Below, one piece after another: positions 24,762 to 37,372 of a stretch of DNA of 44,722 nucleotides. Numbering within the stretch: the stretch's first letter is position 1; the number at the start of each line of letters is the position of its first letter. The translations under genes were made by a program, and so were the position numbers. Under the pieces are notes generated by a model, which saw only the letters and a list, made by a program, of their open reading frames with translations, searched no databases and was not told the origin of the DNA. This DNA comes from Chryseobacterium gleum. GTDB taxonomy: Bacteria; Bacteroidota; Bacteroidia; Flavobacteriales_D; Sanyastnellaceae. Where the stretch lies: assembly GCA_945874695.1 (NCBI GenBank), contig CAMCHP010000018.1:1-44722 (forward strand), given 5' to 3'.

Positions 24762-24813
24762 TCATTTTAACAATATTTGCTTTCTCTTGATTGGAATACC
24801 TCCAGCAAGCCTG

Positions 24814-24821
24814 TACATTCG
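24814..24821 (+). promoter_or_regulatory. Probable -7 box for the MacAB-like export operon
   Basis: TACATTCG, one mismatch from TAnnTTTG, 10 bases before ATG 24832; the leader would be only a few bases. Confidence 0.45.
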
Positions 24822-24831
24822 CCCAACGTGC

Positions 24832-25536
24832 ATGATAGATCTCAAGAACATAACCAAATCATACAAGACTGGTAAGCAAGCCTTGCAAGTCTTAAAGGGC
24901 ATTGACCTGTCGATTAAACAAGGAGAATTGGTTTCGATAATGGGGTCGTCAGGCTCTGGGAAGTCGACTTTGCTGAATATTTTAGGCTTGCTTGATGGCC
25001 ATGATGGCGGCAGTTATAAGCTCGATGGTTTGTCGATGGATAAGCTCGACGAATCAACGGCAGCGCAGTACCGCAGTAAGTTCATCGGCTTCGTATTTCA
25101 AAGCTTCAATTTGATCACGTACAAGAATGCCCTTGAGAATGTGGCATTGCCTTTGTATTATCAAAAGGTTCCGCGCAAGGTGCGCAATGCGAAGGCGTTG
25201 GCCTACCTTGAAAAAGTAGGATTGAAAGACTGGGCGCACCATTTGCCATCGGAAATGAGTGGCGGCCAGAAGCAACGCGTGGCCATTGCCCGTGCTTTGA
25301 TTACCGAGCCGCGTGTGATTTTTGCTGATGAGCCCACCGGAGCGCTCGATAGCGTTACCAGTGAAGAAGTCATGAAGCTCTTGCGATTTATTAATAAGGA
25401 AGGCATCACCATTGTTATTGTTACCCACGAGAACGAGGTTGCAGCCCAAACCAACCGCATTATACGATTGCGTGATGGCCTGATCGAATCGGCAAATGCC
25501 ACCCTTGAACCCCTCGATTCATTGGATCATGTTTGA
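24832..25536 (+). CDS. ABC transporter ATPase, MacB/LolD type
   Basis: 234 aa from ATG 24832; the open frame to 24787 lies upstream of the likely promoter. Walker A GSSGSGKST (residues 38-46), signature MSGGQKQR, Walker B VIFADEPTGALD and a D-loop/H-loop ending IVIVTHE are all canonical for the LolD/MacB ATPase class. It is the energising subunit for the two permeases that follow; the first permease's ATG lies inside its 3' end (8-bp overlap), indicating translational coupling. Confidence 0.93.
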   Translation: MIDLKNITKSYKTGKQALQVLKGIDLSIKQGELVSIMGSSGSGKSTLLNILGLLDGHDGGSYKLDGLSMDKLDESTAAQYRSKFIGFVFQSFNLITYKNALENVALPLYYQKVPRKVRNAKALAYLEKVGLKDWAHHLPSEMSGGQKQRVAIARALITEPRVIFADEPTGALDSVTSEEVMKLLRFINKEGITIVIVTHENEVAAQTNRIIRLRDGLIESANATLEPLDSLDHV

Positions 25537-26755
25537 TCGCGATAAGTGGCTGGAGATTTTGCATACGATTTTGCAAAATCCGTTACGTACTTTTTTGACG
25601 GGTGTGAGTGTTGCCCTAGGCATCTTTATTTTGGTTGTGATGCAAGGGCTCGGATTTGGCTTGCAAAACGGCGTAATGCGCCAAATGCAAGACGATGCAG
25701 TGAACTCATTGTGGATTTACAGCGATGTCACCACCTTGCCCTATCGGGGGACAAACCCTGGCAAAAACATTCAATTTACGAATGATGACTTGACTTATGT
25801 CGCATCTAAAGTAGAAGGCGTGAGCGGCTATACTGCGCGCCTTGGTTTTTGGGGCGCCCAAATGAGTTTTGAGAATGAAACGATGGGTTTCAGCGCACGA
25901 GGCGTGCATCCGGGGCACCAAGAGCTCGAGCGAACTGATATTAAGTCGGGTCGTTTCTTGAATGAGGCAGATATTGCGGAGCGGAAGAAAGTTGCGGTTA
26001 TCGGACAAACGATTGTAGATGATTTGTTTCGGGGGAGCGATCCGATTGGTCAGTATATGAGTATCATGGGCGTGCGTTTCGTGGTCGTAGGCACCTTTGA
26101 AAAACCGAACGGACGATGGGAAAACAGACAGGCCTATTTACCGATATCGACCGCACAACGGGTTTTCGGTCGTGCTGATCGCATCGGTTCATTCGCCGTG
26201 TCAACAGGTGATGCCCCCTTGTTTGAAACTGTGCGCATGGTTGAAGAAATCAAGGCCTACTTGTATGATACGCATGGGGTGCACCCGGATGACACACGAG
26301 CCATTTCGGTGACCAACAATAACGAAGAGTTTCGTACCTACCTCGATGTATTTACGGGCATTCGTATCTTTATTTGGATGATTGGCGGTTTCACGCTGCT
26401 CGCGGGGATGATCGGTGTAGGTAACATTATGTCGATCGTCGTGAAAGAGCGAACGAAAGAAATTGGTATTCGCAAGGCACTGGGAGCGAACCCCCGCACG
26501 ATACTTGCGCTGATCATTCAAGAAGCCACGTTTTTAACCCTTGTTTCGGGCTCGTTTGGTTTGGTTATAGGGGTGGTTCTCCTTGAAAGTATCAGCGATT
26601 TAATTGACCATGAATTCTTTTCAAATCCGGCCGTTGATTTTCGCATTTGCGCGTTAGCACTCGGCTTATTGGTAGTTTCAGGAATTTTATCGGGCTTATT
26701 TCCAGCGCTACGCGCTGTGCGAGTTAGTCCGGTTGAAGCATTACGCGACGAATGA
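25529..26755 (+). CDS. ABC transporter permease, MacB type (first)
   Basis: 408 aa from ATG 25529, overlapping the ATPase stop by 8 bp. One membrane segment near residues 18-40 (TGVSVALGIFILVVMQGLGF), a large MacB-type periplasmic core (about 45-270), then three C-terminal membrane segments with the FtsX-type stretch VVKERTKEIGIRKALGA. In MacB-like mechanotransmission systems the periplasmic part works with an adaptor and TolC to push substrates outward. Its stop overlaps the next ATG by 4 bp (ATGA). Confidence 0.9.
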   Translation: MFDRDKWLEILHTILQNPLRTFLTGVSVALGIFILVVMQGLGFGLQNGVMRQMQDDAVNSLWIYSDVTTLPYRGTNPGKNIQFTNDDLTYVASKVEGVSGYTARLGFWGAQMSFENETMGFSARGVHPGHQELERTDIKSGRFLNEADIAERKKVAVIGQTIVDDLFRGSDPIGQYMSIMGVRFVVVGTFEKPNGRWENRQAYLPISTAQRVFGRADRIGSFAVSTGDAPLFETVRMVEEIKAYLYDTHGVHPDDTRAISVTNNNEEFRTYLDVFTGIRIFIWMIGGFTLLAGMIGVGNIMSIVVKERTKEIGIRKALGANPRTILALIIQEATFLTLVSGSFGLVIGVVLLESISDLIDHEFFSNPAVDFRICALALGLLVVSGILSGLFPALRAVRVSPVEALRDE

Positions 26756-28023
26756 GACAGTTGTTTGACAGTGACCGTTGGCTGGAGATGCTGCAAGTAA
26801 TTTTGCGCAACCCCGTGCGCGCCTTTCTTTCAGGGCTGGGCGTGAGTTGGGGTATTTTTATGCTGATCATTACGTTGGGCTCAACGCAAGGATTGGAGAA
26901 TGGCATCAAAGCTGATATGTCAGGTACCGCTGAGAATAGCATGTTCTTATGGACGATGCAAACCAGTATGCCTTACAAAGGCTATCAAAAAGGCCGTTTT
27001 TTTTCATTGAACAACGGTGATGTTGAGCACCTGCGTCAAACGGTTGAAAGCGTCGAATTGATTTCGCCACGGAATCAACTGGGTGGCTGGAACGGCGCGA
27101 ACAATGTGATTCGCGGGTTAAACACAGGGGGCTTTAACATTTATGGTGACATGCCGGAATACCCACGCATTGAACCCATTCGTTTGCACACCGGCCGTTT
27201 TTTGAACTACGGTGATGTTGCGGCAGAACGTAAAGTATGCGTGATTGGCGATCGGGTGTATCAGGTTCTTTTCCCAGATGGCGAGGATCCGATTGGCGAG
27301 TACATCCAAATCAACGGGGTGAATTTTGTAGTCATTGGTCAGTATGGGACGCACCGCACCGGCGAAGACGCAGAGGAGGCAACGAGTTCGATTTATGTAC
27401 CGCTGCCGACCTTTCAGAAGGTTTTTAATTTTGGCGACTACGTCGGATGGTTATCGATCCTCATTCGCAAAGATGTGAACGCCGACGAGGCAGCCGAAGA
27501 AGTGGTGCAAGCTTTGAAGTCACGCAAGTCGATTCATCCTGATGATCCGCGTGCATTTGGATGGTGGTCGATGGCCGAAGAGGTTGCTGAGATGAACCTG
27601 GTATTTAGCGGCTTCAACGTTGTGGCGATTGTATTTGGTGGGTTGGTGTTGTTAGCTGGGATTATTGGCATCGTTAACATTATGTTGATCACGGTGCGTG
27701 AGCGAACCAAAGAAATTGGCATTCGGCGAAGCATTGGCGCGACACCTTTTTCGGTGATCACCCAGATCATGGCGGAGACCGTTTTCTTAACCACCATCGC
27801 TGGAATGGCGGGTATGATTGTAGGTGTGGTTGCTTTGGAGGTGGTGGCTAAAGTGTTGGAATCAGGTGGAGAAGCGGGGTCATTCCGCGATCCAGGTATT
27901 GCCATGCTGAGTGTGCTGCGTGCTTTAATGGCTATGATTGTGATGGGGGCCTTGGCGGGATTGTTGCCTGCGGCTCGCGCAGTGGCCATTCGACCCGTTG
28001 AAGCCTTGCGCGCCGATGGATAA
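26752..28023 (+). CDS. ABC transporter permease, MacB type (second)
   Basis: 423 aa, a paralogue of the preceding permease with the same layout (N-terminal membrane segment, periplasmic core, three C-terminal segments; VRERTKEIGIRRSIGATP). The two permeases probably form a heterodimer on one ATPase, unlike E. coli MacB where ATPase and permease are one chain. The ATGA overlap with the first permease ties their translation together. Confidence 0.9.
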   Translation: MRQLFDSDRWLEMLQVILRNPVRAFLSGLGVSWGIFMLIITLGSTQGLENGIKADMSGTAENSMFLWTMQTSMPYKGYQKGRFFSLNNGDVEHLRQTVESVELISPRNQLGGWNGANNVIRGLNTGGFNIYGDMPEYPRIEPIRLHTGRFLNYGDVAAERKVCVIGDRVYQVLFPDGEDPIGEYIQINGVNFVVIGQYGTHRTGEDAEEATSSIYVPLPTFQKVFNFGDYVGWLSILIRKDVNADEAAEEVVQALKSRKSIHPDDPRAFGWWSMAEEVAEMNLVFSGFNVVAIVFGGLVLLAGIIGIVNIMLITVRERTKEIGIRRSIGATPFSVITQIMAETVFLTTIAGMAGMIVGVVALEVVAKVLESGGEAGSFRDPGIAMLSVLRALMAMIVMGALAGLLPAARAVAIRPVEALRADG

Positions 28024-28050
28024 TTCAGTGAAAAGAAATAGATTCGAGTT

Positions 28051-29157
28051 ATGAATAAAGGATGTTTGTACAGTTTGATCGCCTTTGTGGTTGTGGTGCT
28101 CTTGGCCGCTGGAGGTACCTTGTATTATCTCAATGAAAAAGAGAAACAAGGACCCGAAATCTTCGATACAGAGCAAGCTGTGATTGGAAACGTTGTGTTG
28201 CGTACTGTGGCCAATGGCAGTGTGCAACCACGCAGGGAAGTGGATATCAAATCGCAAATCAGTGGTATTGTGAGCGGAATTTTTGTGGAAGCAGGAGACC
28301 TTGTTCAGGCTGGTGATTTGGTTGCGCGTATTCGGGTTATTCCTGATATGGTGAGTTTGAGTAATGCAGAGAACCGCTTGGAACGTGCGAAAATATCGTT
28401 TGATAACGCAGACTTAGATTTTAAGCGCAATGCGAAGTTGCTTGAAAGCGGCGTGATTTCGAATGCTGATTTTCAAGCTTTTGAGATCGCATTGCGTGCG
28501 GCGCGCGAAGAGCTCAGCGCGGCCGAAGACAATTTGCAAATTGTACGCGACGGGGTTGGTCGCCGATCAGGAAAGAGCACGTTAACCGAGATTCGTTCAA
28601 CCATTTCTGGAATGGTTTTGAATGTCCCCATTAAAGAAGGGAGTTCAGTGATAGAGGCCAACAATTTCAATGAAGGGACGTCGATTTGTGTAGTAGCCGA
28701 CATGGAAGATTTGATTTTCAATGGCAAAGTAGACGAGTCAGAGGTAGAGAAGTTGGAAGCGGGTATGGAATTATTTTTGACCATTGGGGCGATTGAGGAC
28801 AAGAAGTACGACGCGGTGTTGGAGTACATTTCACCTAAAGGCGTTGCAGAGAATGGAGCGATTCAATTTGAAATTCGCGCAGCGGTTAAGTTAGCTGAAG
28901 GCGATTTTATTCGTGCGGGTTACAGTGCGAATGCAAATGTGGTGCTAGACAAACGCGACAGTGTATTGACGATTAGCGAGAGTGTTGTGCAATACGATGC
29001 CGACCAGAAATCTTTTGTAGAGGTGGCTGTTGGCGAGAATGCATGGGAACGACGTGATGTGAAGTTGGGCTTGAGCGACGGGTTGAGGGTTGAGGTTTTG
29101 GAAGGCCTATCAACAGAGGAAAAATTGAAACTTTGGAATAAGCCGCGCTTCGATTAG
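28051..29157 (+). CDS. Efflux periplasmic adaptor subunit (MacA/HlyD family)
   Basis: 368 aa. An N-terminal membrane anchor (residues 8-26), a split lipoyl domain (VDIKSQISGIVSGIFVEAGDLVQAGDLVARI at about 67-97, returning near 190-215), a helical hairpin (about 105-175) and C-terminal beta domains. This is the membrane-fusion protein of the MacAB-like system. It starts 27 bp after the second permease. No TolC gene belongs to this operon; the one nearby is on the opposite strand. Confidence 0.9.
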   Translation: MNKGCLYSLIAFVVVVLLAAGGTLYYLNEKEKQGPEIFDTEQAVIGNVVLRTVANGSVQPRREVDIKSQISGIVSGIFVEAGDLVQAGDLVARIRVIPDMVSLSNAENRLERAKISFDNADLDFKRNAKLLESGVISNADFQAFEIALRAAREELSAAEDNLQIVRDGVGRRSGKSTLTEIRSTISGMVLNVPIKEGSSVIEANNFNEGTSICVVADMEDLIFNGKVDESEVEKLEAGMELFLTIGAIEDKKYDAVLEYISPKGVAENGAIQFEIRAAVKLAEGDFIRAGYSANANVVLDKRDSVLTISESVVQYDADQKSFVEVAVGENAWERRDVKLGLSDGLRVEVLEGLSTEEKLKLWNKPRFD

Positions 29158-29179
29158 GTTGCGCTCGCCTTCGAATTCC

Positions 29180-29187
29180 TACATTTG
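29180..29187 (+). promoter_or_regulatory. -7 promoter box for the ICMT-like methyltransferase
   Basis: TACATTTG is an exact TAnnTTTG match ending 4 bases before the ATG at 29192; an open start at 29159 lies upstream of it. Confidence 0.5.
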
Positions 29188-29191
29188 CGGC

Positions 29192-29956
29192 ATGGCACTC
29201 ATCGAAGAAATGGAGCGCAGCGGAAACTGGTTGTTTCGCTACCGCAGTTATTTACCACTGGTTTTATACGCAATGGCCTTTGTTGTTATTGCGAATGGGT
29301 GGGACAAAGACATGGATCATTCGAGCCTGAGCTGGAGCGTTTTTTGCTTGGGTGTGGGCTTGTTCGGTCAGCTTATTCGAATTTTCACGGTAGGTTACAC
29401 GCCGAAGGGAACTTCAGGACGTAACACCAATGAAGGTCAGGTGGCTGAAAGTTTGAATACTTCGGGCATTTATTCGATGGTACGCCATCCCTTGTACTTG
29501 GGTAACTTTTTCATGTGGCTCGGCATCATTCTTTACGTCGGGAACTGGTGGTTTAGTGTGGTGTGCACACTGTTATTTTGGGTGTATTACGAGCGCATTA
29601 TGTTTGCTGAAGAGGCCTTCTTGCGCAGAAAATTCGGTGCGGCTTATGCGCTGTGGTCAGACAAAACACCGCCCTTTTTTCCGAAGCTACGCCGGTACAA
29701 ATCGGCAGGCGTTGAATTTTCGTTGAAGAATGTATTGAAACGCGAATACAACGGGTTTTTTGCGCTGTTTGTGAGCTTTTTACTGGTGAATGTGCTCAAG
29801 AATTACTTGTATTACGAAGTCATTGATTTCAACTTCTTGGTTGATCCATTTTGGATGTATGCGACCGCCATTGCCTTCGTGATTTTCATTGTATTACGTT
29901 CATTGAAGAAGTACACGAAGGTTTTGAACGTAAGAGGTCGCGAATACAACGCTTAG
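29192..29956 (+). CDS. ICMT-like membrane methyltransferase
   Basis: 254 aa from ATG 29192. Several membrane segments; the core GIYSMVRHPLYLGNFFMWLG and the following E-x-x-F-R-x-x-F-G-x-x-Y pattern (EEAFLRRKFGAAYALW) are the SAM-binding and catalytic region of the isoprenylcysteine methyltransferase / phospholipid methyltransferase superfamily. Bacterial members methylate lipids or lipid A phosphate (for example LmtA), and that is the likeliest role here, but the substrate cannot be read from sequence. It could read through from the adaptor gene 34 bp upstream, or start from its own box. The stop overlaps that of the convergent TolC gene by 4 bp. Confidence 0.75.
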   Translation: MALIEEMERSGNWLFRYRSYLPLVLYAMAFVVIANGWDKDMDHSSLSWSVFCLGVGLFGQLIRIFTVGYTPKGTSGRNTNEGQVAESLNTSGIYSMVRHPLYLGNFFMWLGIILYVGNWWFSVVCTLLFWVYYERIMFAEEAFLRRKFGAAYALWSDKTPPFFPKLRRYKSAGVEFSLKNVLKREYNGFFALFVSFLLVNVLKNYLYYEVIDFNFLVDPFWMYATAIAFVIFIVLRSLKKYTKVLNVRGREYNA

Positions 29957-31377
29957 TTGAAGAGCAATTCTTCAGGCGAGTAGGTGAGCAGCGCGCGACG
30001 CCATTCAAGCAATCGCCGTTTACGCTTCAAGTCAATCAATTTCAGCTGCGAAGCAATGTAATTTGATTCGCGAATGTTGACCAAAAGGAGCGTGCTCTCA
30101 CCGAATAGAAGCCGTTTGTTTTCCATGCGCAGCAGTTCTGAAGCATTGGCTACGTTTTCAAGTGCGATTTGTTCTTCTTGACGCAAGAAATCGAGTTGAT
30201 TGGTCAACTGGTCGTACTGTTGAATCAGTTCGCGTTCTTGACGCAGCAATTGAAGCTGCAGCTGATTCAATCGAATCTCAGCGATTTTCAAGGTAGCGCG
30301 TTCTTTTCTGCTGATCAGCGGGAAGTAAGCTGAGAAGCCGAATTGTGTTGAGTTTCCTGACAAACTGTAGGCTCCTTGGCTCGAAAGTGCTTTCGCTGAA
30401 AACTGAAGATCAGGTTTTAGGCGCTCGCGTGCGAGTGCGCGATCGAGCAATGCCGCTCTGCGTTGCAAGTCGACCACATTGAGCATCGGGTTCAGCAAGG
30501 GCGATCGATTTTGGGTGAGTTGATCGTTTAAGCTGGATTCCCAAGTCGTATCACTTTTGAGCTGCATGTTTGAATAGCTTCGAAACAGCGCTTCATCCCA
30601 GATCATATTTCCAAGTAAGCGGTACCATGCCTCGAGCATTTGCGAAGTTGAGAGCACATCGCCTGAACGTTGCAACCATTGTGTGCGTGCTTCGAGCGTG
30701 TCCATTCCAGTAGCCATACCTTGTTCGAAGCGCGTTTTGGTTTGGTTGTACCGCGTTTCGGCGAGTTCAGCAATTTCTTGGCGCACGGTGAGTTCGCGCT
30801 GACTTGCGATCCAATTCCAGAAGAGTTCAGAGCTTGAATAAATCACACCGCGACTGAGGACTTCGAGTTGAACAATAGCCTGTTCGGCAGCGATGCGCGA
30901 TTTTTGGAGCTTGGTTTGATCTTCGGTTCGAAATAGACCATCGCCCAAAGGGATGGCAATTTCTGCGAAGGCTAATCCTTCAGCAGGTGTGCTGAACTCA
31001 GGATTGACGAAATCACCGCGGTTGCGATCAACGCCCGCTTTGAATTGGATGCCGGGCGGCGCCTGCCATGAAAACGAACTGTGTTGGTAGTCATAGTAAT
31101 CTTTGCCTTCGAACTCTTTGGCTTTGAATTCAGACTTCCAAACCGGATCGAAAGCAGCGCGTGCTACCTGAATGTTTTGCTTTGCGCGTTCAACCTCGAG
31201 TTCTTCAGACATCAAGCGCGGATGATAAAGCAACACTTGCTTCAAAAACACCCGTTCGGTGAGCGGCAATACATCTTGCGCCTTGCCTTCAGTTTTGCAT
31301 AGTGCAAGAAGGAGTAGTAGGTAAATTAGTGGCTTACTTCTTTTCACCTTGTGCAGCTTTAACGTCTTCAATTGCAT
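29953..31377 (-). CDS. TolC-family outer-membrane channel
   Basis: 474 aa from ATG 31377, which begins a signal peptide (MQLKTLKLHKVKRSKPLIY...GKAQ); an ATG at 31398 adds 7 residues. Long helical repeats with the OEP pattern (RFEQGMATGMDTLEARTQW; LLRQERELIQQYDQLTNQLDF) identify an outer-membrane efflux protein. It is the last gene of an operon with the HlyD adaptor, overlapping its 3' end by 44 bp, and gives the outer-membrane exit duct. It may also serve the MacAB-like operon, which lacks its own. Confidence 0.88.
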   Translation of the reverse strand: MQLKTLKLHKVKRSKPLIYLLLLLALCKTEGKAQDVLPLTERVFLKQVLLYHPRLMSEELEVERAKQNIQVARAAFDPVWKSEFKAKEFEGKDYYDYQHSSFSWQAPPGIQFKAGVDRNRGDFVNPEFSTPAEGLAFAEIAIPLGDGLFRTEDQTKLQKSRIAAEQAIVQLEVLSRGVIYSSSELFWNWIASQRELTVRQEIAELAETRYNQTKTRFEQGMATGMDTLEARTQWLQRSGDVLSTSQMLEAWYRLLGNMIWDEALFRSYSNMQLKSDTTWESSLNDQLTQNRSPLLNPMLNVVDLQRRAALLDRALARERLKPDLQFSAKALSSQGAYSLSGNSTQFGFSAYFPLISRKERATLKIAEIRLNQLQLQLLRQERELIQQYDQLTNQLDFLRQEEQIALENVANASELLRMENKRLLFGESTLLLVNIRESNYIASQLKLIDLKRKRRLLEWRRALLTYSPEELLFN

Positions 31378-32689
31378 AGAATTCGGGCGGGAATCCATTC
31401 AATTGACGCCACAATTCATACCCGAGCGGCACATCTTTCAAGAGCAGAATGCCCATCACCCCAGACCCAATACTGATCGGACGGGGCCAATCGCCTTCGT
31501 CGGGGTCGGGAATGAGAATCACGCGATACTTGCCTTGCGCGTTGATGACTTGATCTACACTCAGCACTTCGGCACCGTAGGTACCAATCGAGGCACTGGG
31601 CCAGCCGCTAAAGACAAGAGCTGGCCAACCGTCAAGTTGGAGCCTTGCTTTTGCACCGGGATGCAAAATTGGCACGTCCATTGCACTAACATAGAGTTCG
31701 GCTGCTGCATCGAAGTCGAGCGGTTGAATAGTAGCCACCGCAGTACCGGCCTTCACAATTTCGCCAACCCCCCCCTGAAGGGCCGATACAATGCGTCCGC
31801 TTTGCGGAGCAAGTACAACGCGACCACCTTCTCGAATTTGATAATTGGAAATGGTGTTTTCAAGCTTTGTTTTCTCGCCAATCGCCTCTTGAAACGCCGA
31901 TTCGGTTGTGGCAATGTCACTTCGGTTTTTGGCCAGTTTGTCGGCAAATTCAGCGGCTTTTCGGTTGACTTCGATCATGGCCATTTCTAAGCTTTGCCGC
32001 TGGCCTAAAAGTTGGTTTCTTGCCTTTACTTGCTTGGCCACCGCTTCTTGGCGTGAAAGGTCGCGTGATTCAAAATCTGTAGTTGAGAGGAGGCCGTCGC
32101 GGAAAAGTTCTTCAGCACGTTTGAAACGTTCATCGGCAATTTGGATGTTGAGATTTTCTTGGACAAGCGCTGCACTGTCGGCTTGAACGTATTGGCGGGC
32201 TTGAAGCACCTTCAAACGGGCCTGACTCAATTCAAAATCGCGCGACATGATCAAAGCCGTTTCTTGATCAAGCAGTGCTGCAATTTTTCGTTCATAGGCT
32301 GCAATCGAAAGTGTTTTGGCCTCGATTAGGTTTTGTGTACGCTCAACCAGTTTGGGGTCGAGGTACTCGGGATTCACTTCGTCTAAGATCAAAATGGTAT
32401 CACCTTCTTCAATGTACTGACCTTCGTAAGCGTACCAATTCACGATGCGACCATCAATAAGTGTATTGATTTGTTGTGGCTTTTTATTAGGAAATCGGCT
32501 AATTATTTTACCTGTAGACATAACGTTTTGGGTCCAGGGGAGGAGGAGGACCATTATCAACAAGACAAAGGCAATGAACAATCCACGAACAATGCGATAG
32601 CCTTTGCGTTGGTCGGCCAATATGCGCAAACTACCTGAATCTTCAACGCGCGACTTCATGTCGGCGGGCATCTGACTGATATTAAGCAT
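31334..32689 (-). CDS. HlyD-family periplasmic adaptor
   Basis: 451 aa. Cytoplasmic N-terminus, one membrane segment (about 34-50), lipoyl half (GRIVNWYAYEGQYIEEGDTILIL), a long coiled-coil hairpin (about 110-290), second lipoyl half (APQSGRIVSAL) and beta-barrel end. Large adaptors like this link an inner-membrane ABC protein to TolC in type I secretion. It overlaps the ABC gene by 8 bp. Minor changes in the lipoyl half are ordinary for the family. Confidence 0.88.
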   Translation of the reverse strand: MLNISQMPADMKSRVEDSGSLRILADQRKGYRIVRGLFIAFVLLIMVLLLPWTQNVMSTGKIISRFPNKKPQQINTLIDGRIVNWYAYEGQYIEEGDTILILDEVNPEYLDPKLVERTQNLIEAKTLSIAAYERKIAALLDQETALIMSRDFELSQARLKVLQARQYVQADSAALVQENLNIQIADERFKRAEELFRDGLLSTTDFESRDLSRQEAVAKQVKARNQLLGQRQSLEMAMIEVNRKAAEFADKLAKNRSDIATTESAFQEAIGEKTKLENTISNYQIREGGRVVLAPQSGRIVSALQGGVGEIVKAGTAVATIQPLDFDAAAELYVSAMDVPILHPGAKARLQLDGWPALVFSGWPSASIGTYGAEVLSVDQVINAQGKYRVILIPDPDEGDWPRPISIGSGVMGILLLKDVPLGYELWRQLNGFPPEFYAIEDVKAAQGEKK

Positions 32690-34382
32690 ATACGACCGAA
32701 TTAGTTGCGCCTAAATCATCTGGATTGCAAGGAAGCAATTGCCCATCTTCATGCTTGTAGTACGTGTCAAATAAGCGTGCATCGGGCCTACTTTCACTGA
32801 GAAAGATAACGGCCCAAGGGTGTTGAGGATCGAGCAAGTAATCGAGCATTTGCTTATAACGCACAGGATCAGATGGAAGCTGTTCTGCATCAATCAAGAG
32901 CAAGTCAGGATTATCGATGACATTGCGCGCCAAAAGAATACCCTTTGTGATTACAGGTGAAATCATCGTGCTAAAAGGCAGAACCATGGTGTTCTCACCT
33001 TCGGGTAGTTGTCGGATTTCTTTAATGAGGCCAATGCGTTGCAGGGTTTGTTCTACTGCCGTAGTAGAGACATTGAGTCGACCTGCTTTAACGTTGTCAA
33101 TAATGCTTGCTGTAATGAGCTCGTCGCGCCCCCAAAGTTCGCCGATTTGAGCACGAAACGCATTTAAGTCAATAGACTTTAAAGCGCGTCCACGAAACAG
33201 AATATGCCCTTGATAGTCTTTCACGCGGCCTGTGAACGCGAGGAGCAGGGTGCGTACAAAAAGTGGATTAGAATATTGAATGAAAACCCGCTCTCCAGCT
33301 TTGATTTCGAGGCGTTCACATGAGATTTCGGTCATGTACGGGCCATTCTTTATGTCGAGATCTTCAACCAAAAGCAGGGAAGCAGTTTGGCTGAATTCGG
33401 TCACGCGGCCAGGGTCTTCCAATTCGAGATCGGTCACAGCCCCCACTTTTTCAAGGGCAGTTAATACATCATACACCGACTCGAGGTTCATGATAATTTT
33501 CTCTACGGAGGTAATGATGAGCAAGATAACGATTTCAGCTGCAACGAATTGACCGATACCTATTTCTCGTTCGATCACGAGTAGACCGCCTAGAATGAGC
33601 AAACCGGCGGCAACCAAAAACTTAAAGAGTAAGAGCGCTAAGTAGTGCCTTACGAGCACTTTGAAGTGATCGCGACGCGCTTGGACGTAGTTCGTGGTCA
33701 TTTCATCGGTTTTGGTTACACCGATGGTTGACTTGGGCGTCATGCGGAGCGTTTCCACGTTGACCGCCATTTCTTCTAACCAGCCTACAACTTTGTACTT
33801 CCAGTTCGATTCACGCAAGCTCGTTTCGAGGCCTTTTTTCATCGACATGCGGATGAGGGTGAGCACGAGCACTACGATCACCAAGTCGAAGATGATGAAA
33901 AAGGGGTGGTATAAGGCAAGAAGCACCAAACCGAAAAAGACTTGAAGCAACGAAGTTGAGAAATCGATGATGAGCTTGCTCAAGCCTTTTTGAATGGCCA
34001 AGACATCGAAGAAACGGTTGACCATTTCTACGGCGTTCTTTTTCTCTAGGGTTTGAAAATCGATACGCGGAATTCGAAGTGAAAATTCGAGACTTGCCCG
34101 CGCAAACACGCGCTGTTGGAAGAATTCAATCAACCATTGTTGACGAATGACGAGCCAACCGCTGGCTACGATACCGGAGAGCACGAAAATAACAAGGATA
34201 ATCCACGACGTGCTGAGGCGCCCCGCTTGAATGAAGTTGATGATGGCCTGAATGCCGAGTGGCAATGAAAGGCTTACCAATCCACCGAAACCAGCAATCA
34301 AAAATACACGCGTCAGCAGCGTTTTTTCAGCAGCCAAAAGGCGCCAGAGTCGCTGCCATGGAGTCGTAAGAGTTACTTTCAT
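32682..34382 (-). CDS. Type I secretion-like ABC protein with a degenerate ATPase domain
   Basis: 566 aa. Membrane region of the ABC exporter type (about 25-300; SLPLGIQAIINFI, the Q-x-x-F-x-R-A-S-L-E-F stretch, coupling helices). The nucleotide-binding domain (335-566) has lost its key motifs: Walker A reads IQYSNPLFVRTLLL with no GKS/T (about 367-380), the signature LSGGQ is ISPVI (474-478), the Walker B catalytic Glu is Ala499 (LLLIDAE), the Q-loop Gln is gone and the H-loop His is replaced by Ser. ATP hydrolysis is not expected. From memory, related Bacteroidota proteins keep Walker A but share the altered signature, so decay appears to have gone further here. The reading frame is intact and the operon tight, so it is probably functional in another way. 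Confidence 0.8.
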   Translation of the reverse strand: MKVTLTTPWQRLWRLLAAEKTLLTRVFLIAGFGGLVSLSLPLGIQAIINFIQAGRLSTSWIILVIFVLSGIVASGWLVIRQQWLIEFFQQRVFARASLEFSLRIPRIDFQTLEKKNAVEMVNRFFDVLAIQKGLSKLIIDFSTSLLQVFFGLVLLALYHPFFIIFDLVIVVLVLTLIRMSMKKGLETSLRESNWKYKVVGWLEEMAVNVETLRMTPKSTIGVTKTDEMTTNYVQARRDHFKVLVRHYLALLLFKFLVAAGLLILGGLLVIEREIGIGQFVAAEIVILLIITSVEKIIMNLESVYDVLTALEKVGAVTDLELEDPGRVTEFSQTASLLLVEDLDIKNGPYMTEISCERLEIKAGERVFIQYSNPLFVRTLLLAFTGRVKDYQGHILFRGRALKSIDLNAFRAQIGELWGRDELITASIIDNVKAGRLNVSTTAVEQTLQRIGLIKEIRQLPEGENTMVLPFSTMISPVITKGILLARNVIDNPDLLLIDAEQLPSDPVRYKQMLDYLLDPQHPWAVIFLSESRPDARLFDTYYKHEDGQLLPCNPDDLGATNSVVYA

Positions 34383-34449
34383 TCGATGTAAGGCGTTCAG
34401 GCATTGTTGTCAATCACGCTTTGATTGAATTCGAGCCAATTTCACAATG

Positions 34450-34457
34450 CAAAAATA
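34450..34457 (-). promoter_or_regulatory. -7 promoter box for the ABC/HlyD/TolC operon
   Basis: TATTTTTG on the minus strand is an exact TAnnTTTG match about 68 bases before the ABC gene ATG, giving a leader of roughly 60 nt. Confidence 0.55.
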
Positions 34458-34508
34458 AACCCTGAATCAATCAAAATGTTTATCATTAACTTTATTTAAT
34501 GGATTTGC

Positions 34509-35315
34509 TCAGGTTACTTTTACTTTTGCTATAATTTTTCTCAATAGTGCAGGAAAAAAGCGGTGAATGTAAACGGCGAGGATCTCGCGTCGACCGATTA
34601 AAACCTGGGCTTTTCGTTTGCGCATTGCCCCGATCATCGCCAAGGCGCAGCGCTGGGCTGAAATTCCGTTTCCAGTAGCTTCATCCATGCTTCCTTGTTT
34701 GCTGCCGTCACCTACGAGTGCATTGCGGGAAATATTAGTTTGAATGTATCCGGGGCATACGATCGTCACGTGCAGGTTGTGATGTGTTGTTTCAGCGCGA
34801 AGCGCATTGAAATAGCCATGGAGTGCGTGTTTGGCAGCACAATACGAGCTGCGCAGCGGTGATGAGAAGATACCCATCAGGCTGGTTACCACAACAATAT
34901 GGCCCGATTTACGTGCGATCATGGTTGGAAGCGCGCTGCGCGTGAGCGCAACCGTTCCGAAGTAGTTGACTTCCATCATTTGGCGATCAACGGCAGCCGA
35001 TGTTTCAATGGCCGGGGCGCGTTGGCTGATTCCACCGCAATGTACGATGACATCGATCTGATTCTTGCACAAGGTTTCGGCTTGGGCATAGGCACCTTCA
35101 AGGCTTGGAGTGTTGGCCAAATCAAGGGCGAACACATCCACCCGTTCAGGGTGCAAACATTCACCACGTACTTTTTCGAGTTCCGCCTGACGGCGGGATG
35201 ACAGCACCAAGCGCACGCCAATTTTACTCAATTCAAGGGCGAGTGCTTTACCGATGCCTGAGGATGCGCCGGTGATCCAGAAGGTTTGATTTTCAAATGA
35301 TTTATTTGCTTGCAT
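34509..35315 (-). CDS. SDR-family NAD(P)-dependent oxidoreductase
   Basis: 268 aa classical short-chain dehydrogenase. The cofactor motif TGASSGIG (residues 15-22), the NADP-type LVLSSRRQAELEKV after the second strand, catalytic Ser (VTSLMG) and YCAAKHA (Tyr and Lys) and PGYIQTN are present. It most resembles the DHRS7-like group; the substrate is unknown. Two hairpin copies lie inside it, one sense (35179-35200, exactly over the SSRRQAE cofactor stretch) and one antisense (35135-35157), 21 bp apart. Confidence 0.9.
   Translation of the reverse strand: MQANKSFENQTFWITGASSGIGKALALELSKIGVRLVLSSRRQAELEKVRGECLHPERVDVFALDLANTPSLEGAYAQAETLCKNQIDVIVHCGGISQRAPAIETSAAVDRQMMEVNYFGTVALTRSALPTMIARKSGHIVVVTSLMGIFSSPLRSSYCAAKHALHGYFNALRAETTHHNLHVTIVCPGYIQTNISRNALVGDGSKQGSMDEATGNGISAQRCALAMIGAMRKRKAQVLIGRREILAVYIHRFFPALLRKIIAKVKVT
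35135..35157 (+). repeat. Dispersed hairpin element, copy J
   Basis: CATC, left arm CACCC, 5-base loop GTTCA, right arm GGGTG, tail CAAA; perfect 5-bp stem. Antisense in the SDR gene (codons LHPERVD). Confidence 0.72.
35179..35200 (-). repeat. Dispersed hairpin element, copy K
   Basis: Minus strand: CATC, left arm CCGCC, loop GTCA, right arm GGCGG, tail AACT; perfect 5-bp stem. Sense orientation in the SDR gene, over the conserved NADP-binding residues SSRRQAE, so it is not an insertion into the protein. Confidence 0.78.
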
Positions 35316-35364
35316 AAGTGCGTACGGTGCAATGAGATTGATGAAGCGACGGTATGAATTTATA

Positions 35365-35399
35365 CAAAAACAGGCATACCGTGATTGGCATGCCTGTTT
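35365..35399 (-). terminator. Rho-independent terminator of gyrB
   Basis: Perfect 10-bp inverted repeat (AAACAGGCAT and ATGCCTGTTT) followed on the minus strand by TTTTT, 20 bases after the gyrB stop codon. Confidence 0.85.
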
Positions 35400-35419
35400 C
35401 GCTTTCGGCGCAGATGCGC

Positions 35420-37372
<1,953 letters not shown>

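Follow-up and report, generated by a model that had tools for sequence, protein, structure and literature searches.

An ABC-HlyD-TolC-type exporter with a predicted ATPase-dead nucleotide-binding domain, and graded loss of this domain across Bacteroidota

Introduction

What drives a tripartite exporter whose ABC protein no longer carries the residues used for ATP hydrolysis? Type 1 secretion (T1SS) is defined by its ABC ATPase. In the 44,722-nt stretch of DNA analysed here (the window), an initial annotation described an otherwise ordinary ABC/HlyD/TolC operon in which the ABC protein had kept its frame and membrane part and lost every ATPase motif. We have examined this operon, its relatives and the explanations that such a loss admits.

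Results

The operon and the fold of its ABC protein

The gene for the ABC-derived exporter protein (32682..34382, minus strand) is read from an ATG at 34382 as an uninterrupted frame of 566 aa with no internal stops. Its membrane part matches PF00664 with 35.5 bits, above the Pfam cut-off of 28, and its nucleotide-binding domain (NBD) matches PF00005 (ABC_tran) with 21.6 bits, under the curated cut-off of 25. The AF2 model (pLDDT 88) contains six TM helices (residues 20-52, 58-106, 126-158, 161-207, 220-270 and 276-317) and a confidently folded NBD, placing a transmembrane domain (TMD) of type IV exporter fold at residues 1-325 (33408..34382, minus) and the degenerate NBD at residues 330-566 (32685..33395, minus). 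The best structural matches of this model are TmrAB (Z 27.1), HlyB complexed with HlyD (chain 8dck; Z 27.0, TMq 0.86) and PCAT1. As modelled, the protein is thus a type IV exporter of the ABC superfamily, a six-TM domain joined to an NBD fold. None of the NCBIfam T1SS models attains its cut-off on this protein (the curated models TIGR01842, TIGR01846 and TIGR03375 give 48.9-72.2 bits against cut-offs of 510-726), and the SbmA Pfam model does not match it.

The gene for a HlyD-like periplasmic adaptor of 451 aa (31334..32689, minus; PF13437, 45.5 bits) shares 8 nt with the end of the ABC gene and is followed by that for a TolC-like outer-membrane factor (29953..31398, minus; PF02321, 111.7 bits), whose true start may lie further in. 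An ABC-type inner-membrane protein, a HlyD-type adaptor and a TolC-type factor are therefore encoded together, and both the operon assignment and the intactness of frame and membrane part stand as first annotated. A promoter and terminator scan of 29800-35600 returned fewer sites than shuffled sequence.

Replacement of the ATPase motifs

Motifs were placed by alignment with relatives and by a profile alignment of the family to P-gp. On the minus strand, the former Walker A now reads IQYSNPLFVRTLL (residues 368-380; 33243..33281), with Val376 in place of the Lys; the former Q-loop IGELWGRDELI (residues 413-423; 33114..33146); the former ABC signature (LSGGQ) ISPVI (residues 474-478; 32949..32963); the former Walker B and D-loop LLLIDAEQLPSDP (residues 494-506; 32865..32903); and the former H-loop SES (residues 529-531; 32790..32798). 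The Walker B stretch is DLLLIDAEQ, in which Asp498 is kept and the catalytic Glu has become Ala499, leaving D498 as the sole surviving catalytic-motif residue. The alignments confirm the loss of the Walker A GKS/T, LSGGQ, Walker B Glu, Q-loop Gln and H-loop His claimed at the outset; the phrase "every ATPase motif" holds for these five, which are replaced, but is slightly too strong given the retained Walker B Asp. The ABC protein lacks the set of Walker A and B, LSGGQ, Q-loop and H-loop that marks an ATPase-competent NBD.

A shifted but intact Walker A, which the annotation had named as evidence against its own claim, was ruled out because neither GK[ST] nor G-x4-[GSA]K occurs anywhere in the ABC protein, so that no P-loop exists elsewhere in it. 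Helix 1 of the modelled NBD starts at residue 373, just three residues past the strand, which indicates that the P-loop geometry is absent as well. The same replacements occur in four other genomes (G005, G012, G031 and G024) at about 60% identity, the G024 ORF being split at a run of N, and sequencing or assembly error was rejected on this ground. As judged from its sequence, the window protein very probably does not hydrolyse ATP.

Selection on the degenerate NBD

Within the Walker A-less clade to which the window belongs, the NBD has a dN/dS of 0.025 (G012/G031) and 0.022 (G005/G024) in two within-genus pairs, values that describe selection in the clade and not on the window branch, dS between the window and its relatives being saturated. 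In the same pairs dN/dS was 0.010 and 0.027 for the TMD (the latter for the N-terminal 245 codons only) and 0.036-0.037 for HlyD. The NBD is under strong purifying selection in this clade and the gene is not decaying. Relaxed selection, with dN/dS near 1, had also been named as a result that would speak against the annotation; it is excluded by these values, and a pseudogene was rejected with it.

Twenty-nine NBD residues are invariant in three diverged clade members and occur in <5% of sequences elsewhere in the family, a comparison that covers only these three members and in which some residues are shared by descent and not by selection. Many of them lie at the former nucleotide site: Y370, P373, V376 and R377 in the former Walker A, E415, W417, G418 and R419 in the former Q-loop, A499-E500-Q501-L502-P503-S504 in the former Walker B and D-loop, and E530. 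In G031 (locus L036, 7903-9537, plus strand) a TGA ends the copy about 10 residues short of its near-identical sister in G012.

Graded loss across the family

Of 60 relatives, 40 have an orthologue of the ABC protein, and hundreds of genome records contain one, the matches listed being overwhelmingly from Bacteroidota and including Flavobacterium johnsoniae and F. psychrophilum; a first scan of genome contigs with the single ABC protein as query had given no match. Nearly all family-invariant columns fall within the TMD. Among the 113 Bacteroidia members with an NBD, the Walker A Lys is kept in 106, the Walker B Asp in 13 and the catalytic Glu in 10; LSGGQ and a His at the aligned H-loop column are found in none (0/113 each), and Q, Glu, His and signature are missing together in 95. 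The outgroup from other classes of the phylum (n=11) retains K, D and E in 11/11 and H in 9/11, its Q-loop Gln and signature being atypical already. This retention suggests that the ancestor was probably ATPase-competent.

Taken across the alignment, the loss of ATPase motifs is family-wide and stepwise in Bacteroidota, and the additional loss of Walker A, as in the window clade, is a minority state. The partly degenerate relatives mentioned in the initial annotation are thus real. Its expectation that full loss would be unusual holds in so far as Walker A loss is rare in the family; the window protein is not an isolated oddity, however, and represents one step in a Bacteroidota-wide dismantling whose last stage is proteins without any NBD. 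In four Bacteroidia members (L232-L235), all with Walker A retained, the TMD is preceded by an N-terminal extension of some 155-165 aa.

Relatives that lack the NBD

Seventeen relatives have no NBD and retain the operon: 13 are single-chain TMD-HlyD fusions, one of which (L069) is truncated by a contig end, and four are stand-alone TMDs of about 335-350 aa encoded ahead of HlyD. In an outgroup-rooted tree of TMD plus HlyD, the fusions fall into two groups. One of these is the sister of NBD-bearing proteins without Walker A; the TMD-only proteins form a third group, whose sister is an NBD-bearing protein. AU tests rejected a single origin, both for the fusions (p=1.5e-8) and for the NBD-less forms taken together (p=2.7e-75); these values come from quick-search trees, the groups, although known in advance of the tests, were our own choice, and any long-branch pull of the model is shared by the tests. 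On these sequence trees, the NBD is inferred to have been lost independently at least three times.

The model of a fusion (pLDDT 77, pTM 0.53) runs from six TM helices through a linker to the TM helix of HlyD and a long helical hairpin, and has no separate coupling helices. Foldseek ranked adaptor structures top for this model, with PCAT1 for the TMD; SbmA was not among the matches listed, which excludes nothing. In the genomes of the TMD-only proteins no family-type NBD was found in trans, the best hits having at most 30% identity and lying mostly within full half-transporters.

Coupling loops and charged TM residues

The coupling-helix regions of the window protein are intracellular loop 1 (residues 107-125; 34008..34064, minus) and loop 2 (residues 206-222; 33717..33767, minus). 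Measured from anchor to anchor, loop 1 of the window clade has 39 aa. All outgroup, Walker A-positive and TMD-only rows share this length; four other Walker A-less rows have 35-39 aa and the fusions 32-39 aa. For loop 2, the window clade and almost every NBD-bearing member have 38 aa, against 24-38 aa in the fusions; the control segments TM3 and TM6 are unchanged in length in the latter. The TMD-only proteins (L228-L231) have full-length coupling loops although a family NBD was not found in their genomes; loops of this length would be compatible with an NBD provided in trans.

TM6 carries the charged residues E283, E294 and K295 (33498..33536, minus). E283 is present in 13/13 fusions, 4/4 TMD-only proteins and 11/11 outgroup proteins, and E294 and K295 in all fusions; E283, K132 and K136 persist without change from outgroup to fusions, and E294, K295, K195 and Q278 nearly so. 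E283 lies within an apolar stretch of TM6, at a position that is Phe in P-gp by profile alignment. Since the ATPase-competent outgroup carries it too, E283 was rejected as marking a change to proton coupling; it counts as a coupling candidate and proves no such change.

Gene neighbourhood

The HlyD gene directly follows that of the TMD in 133 of 149 loci, or the two are fused, and TolC-type genes occur in 135 of the loci, mostly as third gene. A TetR-type cluster (five members checked against Pfam) occupies position -1 in 90/149 loci; the window clade has an SDR-family gene in its place. The recurrent TetR-type neighbour points to a possible inducible efflux role, and no recurrent substrate gene was seen near the operon across the family loci. 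Only 4/149 loci have an intact ABC ATPase gene between positions -4 and +5, and the window operon contains none. Elsewhere, the window genome encodes four further ABC_membrane half-transporters, three of them canonical in their motifs where aligned; no second T1SS-type ABC was recognised among its ABC_membrane matches.

Discussion

Since the ATPase signatures are replaced or the NBD is deleted, this machine, if it pumps at all, would need energy other than its own ATP hydrolysis. The conclusion of the initial annotation that energy must come from elsewhere presupposes active transport; proton force and a non-transport role, two of the three options it gave, both accord with the sequence. We propose that the window encodes a tripartite trans-envelope exporter that would descend from a T1SS-like ABC-HlyD-TolC machine and whose own ABC subunit would no longer power it by hydrolysing ATP. 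The TMD, the HlyD adaptor and the TolC factor would form the conserved conduit, the direction of export being suggested by HlyD and TolC only. In the window clade the NBD may serve as a non-catalytic, re-purposed cytosolic domain, docked on the coupling loops and probably holding or gating the dimer. Transport would most likely be coupled to the proton gradient through TMD carboxylates, with E283 in TM6 as the strongest candidate, by analogy with SbmA and the membrane domains of LmrA and MsbA. SbmA is described as a proton-driven protein with a glutamate ladder that has lost both NBD and coupling helices (PMC13316013), the proton-coupling E314 of LmrA is reported to be a TM6 residue (PMC6155054), and MsbA without its NBD is described as active in drug transport and as failing in the essential lipid function of MsbA (PMC8660845). 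A small molecule or a peptide, and not a dedicated secreted protein, is the probable substrate, because a TetR regulator recurs and a substrate gene does not. SbmA-like, proton-driven export is our best guess for the source of energy by analogy; the mechanism as a whole, in which a re-purposed NBD accompanies transport that is most likely proton-coupled, we put forward tentatively, with a chance a little short of even. The wider proposition, that tripartite exporters across the phylum may have passed from ATP-driven to proton-driven (secondary) transport, with every stage still alive and a single-chain TMD-HlyD protein, a T1SS-like machine without an ATPase, as the endpoint, we regard as possible and somewhat more doubtful than not.

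It is unlikely, although far from negligible, that the complex performs no energised transport and acts as a scaffold or passive conduit, a HlyD-TolC envelope tether or a gate through which a gradient or another machine moves the substrate. The TMD, HlyD and TolC are what persists through every form, the fusions require no motor, and the adjoining MacAB-like operon, with its own adaptor and no TolC, could share this TolC; however, the invariant charged TM residues and the strong purifying selection on the TMD suggest more than tethering. ATP power could also be provided in trans, as the annotation had suggested, by an intact ABC protein from elsewhere that dimerises with the degenerate one or adjoins it in a trimer of dimers, as in HlyB. 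Heterodimeric exporters with one degenerate site are reported to be common (PMC7756269), canonical half-transporters are at hand in the window genome, and the coupling loops are retained in TMD-only proteins. We nevertheless consider this source quite unlikely, and a dedicated second ABC protein is disfavoured: intact ABC ATPase genes are rare nearby, no other T1SS-type ABC was recognised among the ABC_membrane matches of the window genome, the TMD-only genomes yielded no family-type NBD, the docking loops are shortened in the fusions, and homodimers would have two dead sites because nearly the whole Bacteroidia family is degenerate. A nucleotide switch, in which ATP is bound as a signal and not hydrolysed and the window clade substitutes another ligand or a constitutively closed NBD dimer, would account for the retention of the Walker A Lys in nearly all Bacteroidia members despite the loss of catalytic residues, and for new invariant residues of the window clade in the same pocket. 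We judge it very unlikely, since repeated complete deletion makes the NBD dispensable and a switch alone provides no energy.

The proton-coupled exporter that we favour resembles several known systems in part. With the HlyB/HlyD/TolC T1SS it has in common gene order, parts, type IV ABC fold and a HlyD-type adaptor, and a 1:1 stoichiometry of ABC protein to HlyD would match the TMD-HlyD fusions, the HlyB:HlyD complex being described as 6:6 (PMC9751043). Unlike that system, it has an NBD without a working ATPase site, no C39-like domain and no substrate gene in the operon. The proton-driven peptide transporters SbmA/BacA (SLiPT) likewise have TMD carboxylates, and an ABC exporter TMD without an NBD, from an NBD-bearing ancestor; here the likeness in lacking an NBD extends to the NBD-less relatives only, and that in coupling-loop loss to the fusions only. 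SbmA is an importer and has neither adaptor nor TolC, whereas the window protein keeps both its NBD and its coupling loops (39 and 38 aa), and so shows neither an NBD-less TMD nor the loss of coupling helices that are features of SLiPT. The heterodimers TmrAB, TM287/288 and BmrCD are similar in overall fold, as type IV exporters with degenerate catalytic residues, but in each of them an intact partner provides one working site, whereas degeneration here is complete and no partner lies alongside.

A T1SS-like conduit thus persists in many Bacteroidota genomes, those of cultured organisms included, after its motor has been crippled, blanked or deleted. Such repeated loss makes it directly testable whether an ABC exporter TMD can be energised without an NBD, and what role an NBD then has. 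SbmA is one completed case; the present family adds intermediates and naturally NBD-less end points, alongside relatives that seem competent as ATPases. In the open-access literature searched by title and abstract we found no earlier account of a Bacteroidota family of NBD-degenerate ABC-HlyD-TolC systems, an absence that is not proof.

The MacAB-like operon beside this locus (24787-29157, plus strand) encodes an intact ABC ATPase, two MacB-type permeases and a HlyD-like adaptor, with no TolC. It is convergent with the TolC end of the degenerate operon, and this synteny is retained in three clade members (L035, L036 and L037). A gene for a PEMT/ICMT-like methyltransferase (29159-29956, plus strand) lies directly behind it.
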